Below the pieces are notes generated by a model, which saw only the letters and a list, made by a program, of their open reading frames with translations, was not told where the DNA came from and did not search any database. A DNA stretch of 35,737 nt, from positions 1-35,737 of the forward strand of contig JAFAJV010000139.1 in the NCBI GenBank assembly GCA_019235995.1. Direction: 5' to 3'. Made by a program: the position numbers and the translations under genes. Source of the DNA: Vulcanimicrobiota bacterium. GTDB taxonomy: Bacteria > Vulcanimicrobiota > Vulcanimicrobiia > Vulcanimicrobiales > Vulcanimicrobiaceae. Below are positions 27,311 to 35,154 of this stretch, in pieces; position 1 is the first letter of the stretch, and each line of letters starts with the position of its first letter.

Positions 27311-32065
<4,755 letters not shown>

Positions 32066-32073
<8 letters not shown>

Positions 32074-33157
32074 CGCCCATGAGCTCTCCCAGCACGTCGA
32101 AGTTGCGGGCCGCGGCGGCCTGCACGAGCTCGCGCTGGCGCTCGAGCTGCGAGGACAGGGCGTCGCGCTGCTCGACGAGCCGATCCACCAGCTCGTCGAC
32201 GGCGCCGTCGCCGAGCCGTCCCCCTCCGGTCGCCCACAGCGGCTCGAGCGGATACTGAAGATCCTCGCACAGCGCGGCCACCTTGGGGTCGTAGGCCATC
32301 GCGAGAAACGGCACGGCGTAGCGCGCGGCGAGCACGAGCGAGTGCAGCCGCATGCCGATGGCGACCCGCGCGGCGCGCACGATCGACGCCGCGTTGGCGA
32401 GCGGACACTCGGGCAAGAGCACGGGGTTGGATGCGCAGGAACGGATCACGTCGCTGGAGATCGCCGCGTCCGCCGCGCCGCCGAGCGGCAAGAACGCGCT
32501 GCGGATCGCGTGGCGTTGCGCCAGCCGATCGACCGCGCGCGCCAGCACGGCCGCGCCGTCGCGAAAACCGGCCGCCTTCCGAACGCTGATCACGGCGTAC
32601 GCGCCGCTCTCGGGCCCCAGGCCCTCCGCCGCGAGATCGCCGCTACCGTCGGGCGCGTCGTACAAGAAGACCGGATCTGCGGTCCGCTCGACCGGCGTGC
32701 GCGGAGCGAGCTCCTGCAGCAGGCGGCGCGAGCGTTCGTCGCGCACCGTCGCGCGGTCGACACCCTTGCAGCTGCGCTTGACCACGAGCCGGCCCCAGAA
32801 GTCGAGCGGGCCGATGGACTGCGCGAAGATCATCGTCTTGCGGCGTGCACGCACCGCCTCGCGCAAGATCATCGCGTAATAGAGCAGACTGCGCAGGCTC
32901 GTGCCGTTCTGCAGCAGGCCGCCGCCGCCGGAGAGCACCACGTCGGCGCGCGCGATCGCCGTCCGAACCGCGCGCCAGTCCCAGCGCGGCGTCGCCTCTA
33001 GCCGATATGCTGCTGCCGTCATGTTCGGCGTGTTGGAGAGCACCTCGAGGCGGGACGCCGGGAAGCGGCGCCGCATCTGCGCGACGAAGACCTCGAGCAG
33101 CGCCTCGTCGCCGAGATTTCCGAAACCGTAGTAGCCCGACAGCAACACGCGTGCCAT
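32066..33157 (-). CDS. csaB: CsaB-type polysaccharide pyruvyl transferase
   Basis: 363 residues from ATG 33157; the upstream extension to 34192 runs through the neighbouring gene in a different frame and is rejected. The N-terminal MARVLLSGYYGFGNLGDEALL is the family hallmark, followed by VVLSGGGGLLQNGTS, KTMIFAQSIGPL, ATVRDERSRRLLQEL and, in the second half, AVISVRKAAG, IGMRLHSLVLAARYAVPFLAMAYDPKV. CsaB adds pyruvate ketals from PEP to wall polysaccharide so that SLH-domain surface proteins can bind. A coiled-coil tail (about 325-355) is present. It shares one base with the DUF5693 stop (TGATG) and overlaps ileS by eight bases. Confidence 0.93.
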
Positions 33158-35154
33158 CACGGCGCGGTCGACGGGAAGCGCCGGTAGATCCAGATCGCAA
33201 CGACGCCGACGATCGCGCCCAGCACGAGGCCGTTGACGACCCGCAGTATCGAGACTTCGAGCGGCGTGTGCAGATGCGAGAAGGTGTCGATCACATCGCC
33301 GACGCCGACACCGATCGCGAGGGCGAGGAGCCAGCCGATCGCGCGGCGATGCCGCGGAAGGAGCGCCGGCAGCAGCATGATCGCGGGGAATCCGATCAGG
33401 AACTCCTTGAAGCGCGGCCGCACGCTGAGAACCGCGGTGAGCGAGTGACGCAGCGCCAACTCGAGGGGCGACGGCGAAACGTCGCTCTCGTTGCCGCTGC
33501 GCACGAGCATCAGCGCGCCCGCGGCGACGATCGCGATGCCCGCGAGGAGCTGATAGGCCAGCACCGGCGACAGGAAGACGTCGCGCGGGCGTTCCACGCC
33601 CGAGCCGAAGCGCCGGTCGAAGAGGTAGAGCGCGAGCGCGATCAGCGGAGGGAGACCGAGCACGAGGCGAACGCCCCGAAAACGCTCGATCTCCTCCATG
33701 GCCAGCGGAAAGCTCATGACGCCGACGACGACCAGGGCGCCGAGCAGCGCGACGCCGGTAGCGACCAGCGTCCAGCCCAAGCTTCGCACGACCTGCGCGC
33801 CCAGTCGTTGCGCCGGCGCTTCGTTCCAGGCGGGGACGAGGCAGAGCAGCGCGGCAGTCGCGAACAGCAGCGCGCCGGCGAGCGCGATGACGGAGCGCGC
33901 AAACGCGTCGTGATGCGACAAGACGCCCGCGGCGTAGAGCAGGACCGTCAGGCCGTACGCGGCGACCGCGAGCCGGCGTCCGTACCAGCCGAAGAGCTCC
34001 AGCAATATCACGAAGATGGACGGGACGGCGAGCGTCGCGACGCCGACGAGGATGCGGTTGTTGCCGTGGTACGGTGGAATCGGGGTCGCGCGTCCGAGTC
34101 GAAATCCGGCGGCCTTGACCTGGTCGGCGATGGCCTTGACCATCTCGACGTTGGTGGCCTCGATCGAGAGGTTTCCGTCTTGATGCCCCCACGGACGAAG
34201 ATAGACGACGCGGACGTTGCGCTCGTGCACGCCGAGGGCGTAGCGGGCGACGACCTCTTCCAGCCTGAGCTTGTCGAGCTCGGTCTTGGCGATCGCCTGC
34301 ACACGGACGGTTCGTCCCGGAATCAGCTTCGCAAGCGTGTCGTTCCCCTTCTGAACCTGACTCGGATCGTACGTCTCGATGGAGCCGAAATTGAAGATGT
34401 GGCGCCTGAAGGCGTCGGCGGTGTCCTGCAGGTGGTCGGGATATCCCACCACTTGATTGGCCAGCCCGAAGAAAACGACGGTGGAAAGCTTGGAGTCGTA
34501 GCGCAGCACGTCACTGAACAAGCCGTCGATCTGCGGGAACGTGAATCGCTCGTCATTTTGAAACCGCGGAATCACGAGCAGTCCGAGCCGCCGCGCCAAC
34601 TCGATCTGATCGGTCGGGATGCCGAGGGCGATCGCGTTGAAGTAATCGATCTGCGTGTGCACCTCGATCAGCCAGGGACGCGTCGAGCGCAAGACGCGCA
34701 CGCTCTTGGGCATGAAGTGCAGCGCCAGTTGGGTGATATACCGGTGGTACGTGGACGAATCCGTGACGAGCAGGTAGACCGCGCCGCGATCGATGCGCCG
34801 CGCGCGGACGAGCTCGGCAAGGAGGGGATCGGCGATCGGGCTGATGCGCGCCTGATTGAGCAGGGCCGCGCCCGTGGTCGCGTATGCCTTGCCGTCGTAG
34901 CCCACGTTGCTCCCGAGCTCTTCGGTCAGCGCGAGCGACGTCAGCCCAGCGCGGCGCAACGCGACGAGGAAGGCCGCGGGGTTGTAATCGTAGGAACGCG
35001 CGAGCGCGTCGAAATCGGTGTAGTCCATCGCCAGCTCAACGCGGTTGGCGTGCGACTCGACGCGCGCGCGAAAGAACGCCACGGCGAGCGAGGCGATCAG
35101 GGCAACGAGCAAGACGATGGCGGCATAGCGCGTTCGCGGTGGAAGGAAGGTCAC
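33157..35154 (-). CDS. DUF5693 family membrane protein
   Basis: 665 residues from GTG 35154. One membrane helix at about 9-27, a large outer domain (about 30-360) that starts DYTDFDALARSYDYNPAAFLVALRRAGLTSLAL, and then about eight to ten membrane segments to the C terminus. The outer domain has an alpha/beta repeat pattern reminiscent of a TIM barrel, with motifs ALTEELGS, IPRFQNDERFTF and VVFFGLANQVVGYP. I recall this family as a frequent neighbour of csaB in Firmicutes and relatives; its role is not established. A function in export, assembly or modification of the pyruvylated wall polymer is an inference from linkage. Translation runs directly into csaB. Confidence 0.8.
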   Translation of the reverse strand: MTFLPPRTRYAAIVLLVALIASLAVAFFRARVESHANRVELAMDYTDFDALARSYDYNPAAFLVALRRAGLTSLALTEELGSNVGYDGKAYATTGAALLNQARISPIADPLLAELVRARRIDRGAVYLLVTDSSTYHRYITQLALHFMPKSVRVLRSTRPWLIEVHTQIDYFNAIALGIPTDQIELARRLGLLVIPRFQNDERFTFPQIDGLFSDVLRYDSKLSTVVFFGLANQVVGYPDHLQDTADAFRRHIFNFGSIETYDPSQVQKGNDTLAKLIPGRTVRVQAIAKTELDKLRLEEVVARYALGVHERNVRVVYLRPWGHQDGNLSIEATNVEMVKAIADQVKAAGFRLGRATPIPPYHGNNRILVGVATLAVPSIFVILLELFGWYGRRLAVAAYGLTVLLYAAGVLSHHDAFARSVIALAGALLFATAALLCLVPAWNEAPAQRLGAQVVRSLGWTLVATGVALLGALVVVGVMSFPLAMEEIERFRGVRLVLGLPPLIALALYLFDRRFGSGVERPRDVFLSPVLAYQLLAGIAIVAAGALMLVRSGNESDVSPSPLELALRHSLTAVLSVRPRFKEFLIGFPAIMLLPALLPRHRRAIGWLLALAIGVGVGDVIDTFSHLHTPLEVSILRVVNGLVLGAIVGVVAIWIYRRFPSTAP

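Follow-up and report, generated by a model that had tools for sequence, protein, structure and literature searches.

A csaB-linked DUF5693 membrane protein as a probable component of pyruvylated wall-polymer synthesis in Candidatus Eremiobacterota

Export and polymerisation of pyruvylated secondary cell wall polymer (SCWP) have no assigned gene in Paenibacillus alvei and are only modelled in Bacillus anthracis. The window analysed here (the whole stretch of 35,737 nucleotides, from genome G000 of a phylum called Candidatus Eremiobacterota throughout) carries csaB fused to the gene of a large membrane protein, and raises the question of whether this protein serves one of these steps and whether the polymer tethers an outer membrane. 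As the gene stands beside csaB or in its operon across two phyla, with a confident predicted fold and few invariant residues, the gap becomes testable.

The DUF5693-csaB-ileS row and its conservation

Three minus-strand genes form a tight row. The first (33157..35154), reading from a GTG start at 35154 to a TGA at 33157, encodes a membrane protein of 665 aa with a full-length match to DUF5693 (PF18949; 440 bits against a cut-off of 29, profile positions 1-606 of 609). The second, csaB (32066..33157), encodes a ketal-pyruvyl transferase of 363 aa, with a full-length PF04230 match and a score of 251 bits (cut-off 213) for the NCBIfam equivalog TIGR03609, 'polysaccharide pyruvyl transferase CsaB'; its predicted activity is pyruvylation of lipid-linked ManNAc. 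The third, ileS (29293..32073; PF00133), encodes isoleucyl-tRNA synthetase and is an operon neighbour outside the pathway. DUF5693 and csaB overlap in a TGATG stop/start junction (33155..33159, minus strand; ...CCG TGATG GCACGC...) with one base in common, and the end of csaB overlaps the start of ileS by 8 bases (32066..32073, minus strand; ATGGCTGA). The reading frames and the TGATG fusion of csaB with a 665-residue membrane protein, as given by the initial annotation, were thereby borne out by coordinates, junction sequence and Pfam and NCBIfam matches. Third-position GC was high and similar across the three genes (0.87-0.89), and a partial enoyl-CoA hydratase gene lies ~200 bases upstream of the row.

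A total of 100 loci around DUF5693 were inspected (20 by genome and 80 from a collection scan, some genomes being represented twice). Wherever the sequence extended far enough (94 loci), csaB was located downstream of DUF5693 on the same strand, in most cases starting only a few bases from where DUF5693 stops, and the remaining six loci end at a contig edge. Because the arrangement held in 94 of 94 loci, the pairing in soil Eremiobacterota is far beyond chance. By a crude measure the spacing was wider at two loci (L149 and L169). The two genes were found together in the same 39 of 41 whole genomes; the exceptions, G015 and G021, also lacked ileS (only paralogous synthetases were found), so that a contig, not the genes, is missing from these assemblies, and G021 was rejected as a genuine loss of csaB and DUF5693. 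As a separate observation, two ORFs of ~500 aa, at least one of them with aspartyl-protease domains, are positioned between DUF5693 and csaB in G022 (L047:7904-10932).

The collection scan reached essentially Eremiobacterota only, and the cross-phylum evidence comes from three plasmid-collection records and from control genomes (n=14). By tblastn of the plasmid records, DUF5693 was found in three Bacillota with csaB near each, the pair recurring at about 25% protein identity. The gene orders were DUF5693-csaB-TagA-TagO, then SLH proteins, in Paenibacillus cellulosilyticus; DUF5693-csaB-TagA in Acetoanaerobium noterae; and csaB-tagA-tagO-DUF5693, as four overlapping or abutting genes in the annotation, on the Pontibacillus plasmid NZ_CP062975.1 (L175:12001-16601). 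In the controls, DUF5693 was matched in Thermus, Deinobacterium, Thermotoga and Bacteroides (three of these four above the cut-off), all of which except Bacteroides were SLH-positive and csaB-matching. The Synechococcus control, SLH-positive and csaB-matching, gave no DUF5693 match, and at an archaeal csaB plasmid locus no DUF5693 was annotated nearby; DUF5693 is therefore not required everywhere. Judged by gene context, DUF5693 is very probably part of the csaB pathway, though not universal in it, and the cross-phylum SCWP operon with DUF5693 is a new element. Thus the fixed DUF5693-csaB linkage proposed at the outset is upheld by the 94 loci and by the recurrence in Bacillota, the suggested survey of co-occurrence returned the pair in all of the 41 whole genomes but two with a missing contig, and the proposed link to wall-polymer assembly gained support from the Bacillota, in which tagA and tagO belong to the same operons. 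The Pontibacillus plasmid bears a whole minimal SCWP operon.

In P. alvei, the substrate of CsaB is a lipid-PP-linked disaccharide (PMC6030368, PMC6801904), the lipid-linked pyruvylated disaccharide is made by CsaB, TagA and TagO, and the locus includes an uncharacterised orf1, next to csaB by locus tag (PMC6030368). Another Paenibacillus has the P. alvei SCWP gene set with DUF5693 upstream of csaB. The P. alvei pathway resembles that of G000, which likewise encodes CsaB, TagA, LCP ligases and an enzyme of TagO/MraY type; however, P. alvei cells are monoderm and bear an SLH S-layer, whereas the organism of the window is a diderm without SLH, and its tagA lies elsewhere in the genome. This TagA-type ManNAc transferase (G000:C64:7243-7740; 192 bits) has counterparts across the collection, TagA being found in 40 of the 41 genomes, in single copy except for two copies in G022. 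LCP genes (PF03816) number two in G000 and were present in 12 of 12 genomes tested, and for PF00953 enzymes, among which a TagO-type initiating transferase would stand beside MraY, only one gene was found in G000, against two in most of 12 genomes. On this gene content, the SCWP route of G000 (TagO/MraY-type enzyme, TagA, CsaB, DUF5693 and LCP) appears near-complete. In Eremiobacterota tagA stands in the row asd-lysC-dapA-tagA-nucleotidyltransferase (G000:C64, L181:3645-8831), and this position within a lysine/diaminopimelate row may tie the polymer to peptidoglycan precursor supply.

Predicted structure and role of DUF5693

AlphaFold2, run for the full protein on a 27-row alignment, predicted a single helix at the N-terminus, then a beta/alpha domain (residues ~36-350) and, after it, about nine helices in the membrane (pLDDT 86). 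As the full-length fold search was blurred by the two joined domains, the extracytoplasmic barrel (residues 33-362; 34069..35058, minus strand) was folded and searched alone (pLDDT 92.8). Its significant Foldseek matches were TIM-barrel enzymes (E 1e-4 to 1e-3) of mixed function, that is, epimerases, pyruvate kinases and glycosidases, yet with low TM-scores (0.23-0.37 on query), and the barrel is therefore called TIM-like and given no enzyme class. The membrane half (residues 362-664; 33160..34071, minus strand) contains about nine further helices by AlphaFold2 and hydropathy, and one of the ten helices of the protein, at residues 582-597, is short and was overlooked by simple hydropathy. Searching PDB sequences for relatives of CsaB and DUF5693, and with profile A1, yielded nothing meaningful, and no Wzy family was among the Pfam matches at E up to 10.

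Residue invariance was judged across Eremiobacterota plus Paenibacillus, Acetoanaerobium and Pontibacillus. The membrane half harbours a charged motif, RSGN...E..R...RPRxKxF (residues 552-585; 33400..33501, minus strand), in which R552, G554, E565, R569, R579-P580-R581, K583 and F585 are invariant, and a second motif, DTFSHxHT (residues 623-630; 33265..33288, minus strand), with T624, H627 and T630 invariant; R638 is invariant as well, and so are R197, E260, Q268, R284, R312 and R315 of the barrel. Assuming ten helices and an N-terminus inside, both membrane motifs would be located next to the barrel, on the outer face. Such a predicted architecture would fit a step of polymerisation, transfer or export. 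A structure placing DUF5693 in an unrelated pathway had been named in advance as evidence against the proposal, and the predicted fold shows none.

From gene context and model together, DUF5693 is, with reasonable confidence, a component of pyruvylated SCWP synthesis. Its assignment specifically as an outer-face polymerase or transferase is a candidate one, held at somewhat under even chances, although polymerase/transferase would be its most likely activity and flippase the next. DUF5693 and CsaB would then be two steps of one route to a peptidoglycan-linked pyruvylated SCWP, in which a TagO-type enzyme would start the unit on undecaprenyl phosphate, TagA would next add ManNAc, and CsaB, in the cytoplasm, would then use PEP to attach the pyruvate ketal. 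DUF5693 would act on the lipid-linked product of CsaB on the outer side of the inner membrane; polymerisation or transfer of units would be its most likely action, with possible help in export, and the chain would be joined to peptidoglycan by LCP ligases. The literature searched, which left most subscription papers outside, held no paper naming DUF5693 or PF18949.

Alternatively, DUF5693 might primarily flip the lipid-linked pyruvylated unit, as an analogue of CsaA or Wzx, with the barrel only assisting. The SCWP pathway requires a flippase, and in the four-gene Pontibacillus operon, which is without Wzx, DUF5693 is the sole large polytopic protein besides TagO. CsaA of B. anthracis is a predicted membrane transporter. 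There csaA is the upstream partner of csaB in the csaAB operon (Mesnage 2000, as cited in PMC3545897), and csaB is likewise paired with an upstream partner gene here; in domain content, DUF5693 is set apart by its TIM-like domain outside the cytoplasm and by a Pfam family of its own. A Wzx/MurJ-type flippase would be expected to share the fold of that class and to lack any large enzyme-like domain outside the cytoplasm, but the ~330-residue TIM-like barrel with its conserved charges is foreign to known Wzx/MurJ flippases, the invariant motifs would, by the topology assumed above, lie at the outer face, and no flippase was among the listed PDB fold matches of DUF5693. Flipping as the primary activity is accordingly regarded as unlikely. 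Of the missing roles first suggested for DUF5693 (flippase, polymerase or anchor factor), its candidacy for the flippase or polymerase step is supported, and the predicted structure does not single out a flippase.

That the neighbourhood is merely a conserved housekeeping operon with ileS, DUF5693 and CsaB being functionally unrelated, is very improbable: ileS is indeed downstream of csaB on the same strand wherever both were found in Eremiobacterota, yet in Bacillota it is tagA and tagO that accompany the pair, and further genes part csaB from ileS in other families of Eremiobacterota, with DUF5693 and csaB still adjacent. One such gene between csaB and ileS encodes an M50 (site-2-type) metalloprotease (L055:10842-12002; similarly at L051, L052, L160 and L171), which at L055 carries CBS domains.

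The outer membrane and the OmpM locus

Eremiobacterota are reported to be diderm, with BamA and LPS genes (PMC6664022). In G010, a member of the window's genus, genes for LptF/LptG and an ABC ATPase (LptB-like) flank a porin gene, and the locus is syntenic with that of G000. The outer membrane, on which the initial annotation had made its tether conditional, is supported by this Lpt operon together with the LPS and BamA genes of the phylum. OmpM is a known outer-membrane tether of Terrabacteria (PMC10628300, PMC9388160), and a csaB mutant of Thermus thermophilus detaches its outer membrane (Cava et al. 2004, described in PMC6282519). Thermus offers a likeness in that csaB operates in a diderm and the Thermus control matched csaB, SLH and DUF5693; however, Thermus has an SLH-bearing SlpA, whereas G000 is without SLH.

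A parallel to the OmpM/SlpA tether of Veillonella, Deinococcus and Thermus is found in class relatives of the window's genus, which have csaB and, at an Lpt locus, OmpM-type proteins composed of a signal peptide, one SLH, a coiled coil and a barrel. The gene row there comprises lptB-like, lptF/G, DUF3084 and RuvX-like genes, followed by those for a TPR protein and a glycosyltransferase. The polymer of these SLH-bearing relatives is probably gripped by OmpM, tethering the outer membrane. In the window's genus, in contrast, the OmpM locus holds a remnant without SLH or stalk that corresponds to the C-terminal portion of the OmpM barrel only, in frames of 358-548 aa versus 870-1040 aa in the class relatives. 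The remnant of G000, which matches OmpM residues 804-909 only, is located at L073:3727-4956 (G000:C145, minus strand; syntenic loci L074-L086). An SLH-less, stalk-less C-terminal barrel is also at the OmpM locus of G021, G023, G032 and G040, and at least two separate truncation events are required on the DUF5693 tree.

Neither PF00395 nor a lineage-specific SLH+stalk profile found an SLH domain over the cut-off in G000, with positive controls recovered, and both profiles were likewise blank in G003, G006, G007, G008, G013, G016, G023 and G040 (each >90% complete). With no SLH and a truncated OmpM, the outer-membrane tether proposed initially is not complete in G000: the search of the rest of the genome for SLH proteins, also suggested then, came back empty with both profiles, and the csaB-DUF5693 pair without SLH, the case named beforehand as counter-evidence, occurs in G000 and the eight other genomes, where it speaks against the tether and leaves the pathway link between CsaB and DUF5693 standing. 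As OmpM of the window's genus lacks SLH and stalk, some other receptor or function must be served by the polymer. On present gene content, the polymer pathway seems to have outlived its known receptor in this genus. The SLH-less genus is a new element; the idea of an outer-membrane tether is itself already known (Cava 2004; PMC10628300). Retention of the polymer pathway in a diderm genus whose OmpM has had its SLH domain cut off is a natural experiment on tether loss or replacement, and loss of outer-membrane tethering is a step proposed in the diderm-to-monoderm transition. The joint reading, in which DUF5693 is a new kind of outer-face polymerase or transferase (TIM-like barrel plus Arg/His membrane site) and the genus has its polymer uncoupled from SLH proteins and its outer membrane held by a different receptor, is put forward tentatively, as rather less than an even prospect.

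Somewhat less probable than not is the view that the polymer of the SLH-less genus is a relic, or just an anionic wall component for which no protein serves as receptor. In P. alvei csaB, tagA and tagO were undeletable, suggesting that the anionic polymer matters in itself (PMC6801904), and csaB and DUF5693 are retained here despite the truncation of OmpM; yet both genes are intact and well conserved genus-wide, which makes 'relic' an unlikely term, and sequence cannot prove that a receptor was lost if an unfamiliar domain took over.

It is improbable that an SLH tether operates here too, its SLH proteins having been missed through incomplete assembly or divergence. The G000 assembly, of 154 contigs, has a completeness of 95.7%; in G032 a divergent SLH escaped the Pfam model and was caught by the lineage profile; and lipoproteins with three SLH repeats occur in genus members G001, G004, G010 and G014, as well as in G021 of another genus. 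However, both profiles were blank in nine genomes, including G013 (97% complete, 9 contigs), and the syntenic OmpM locus is present, yet holds an SLH-less barrel. Two candidates for a substitute were considered. The lipoproteins, of ~300 residues with up to three SLH repeats (L031:4974-5957 in G010; L029:5088-5999 in G021), are possible lipid-anchored SLH tethers, and were rejected as a genus-wide receptor given their restriction to these five genomes. OmpA domains were rejected as a general substitute tether, being present in G000 and absent from G006, G007, G008 and G013; these four are near-complete diderm genomes in which neither SLH nor OmpA domains were detected. The OmpM remnant itself carries, after its signal peptide, a conserved N-terminal stretch like SQLMLRLFGETSDS...GDR.SESPLRDLA, matching no known domain.
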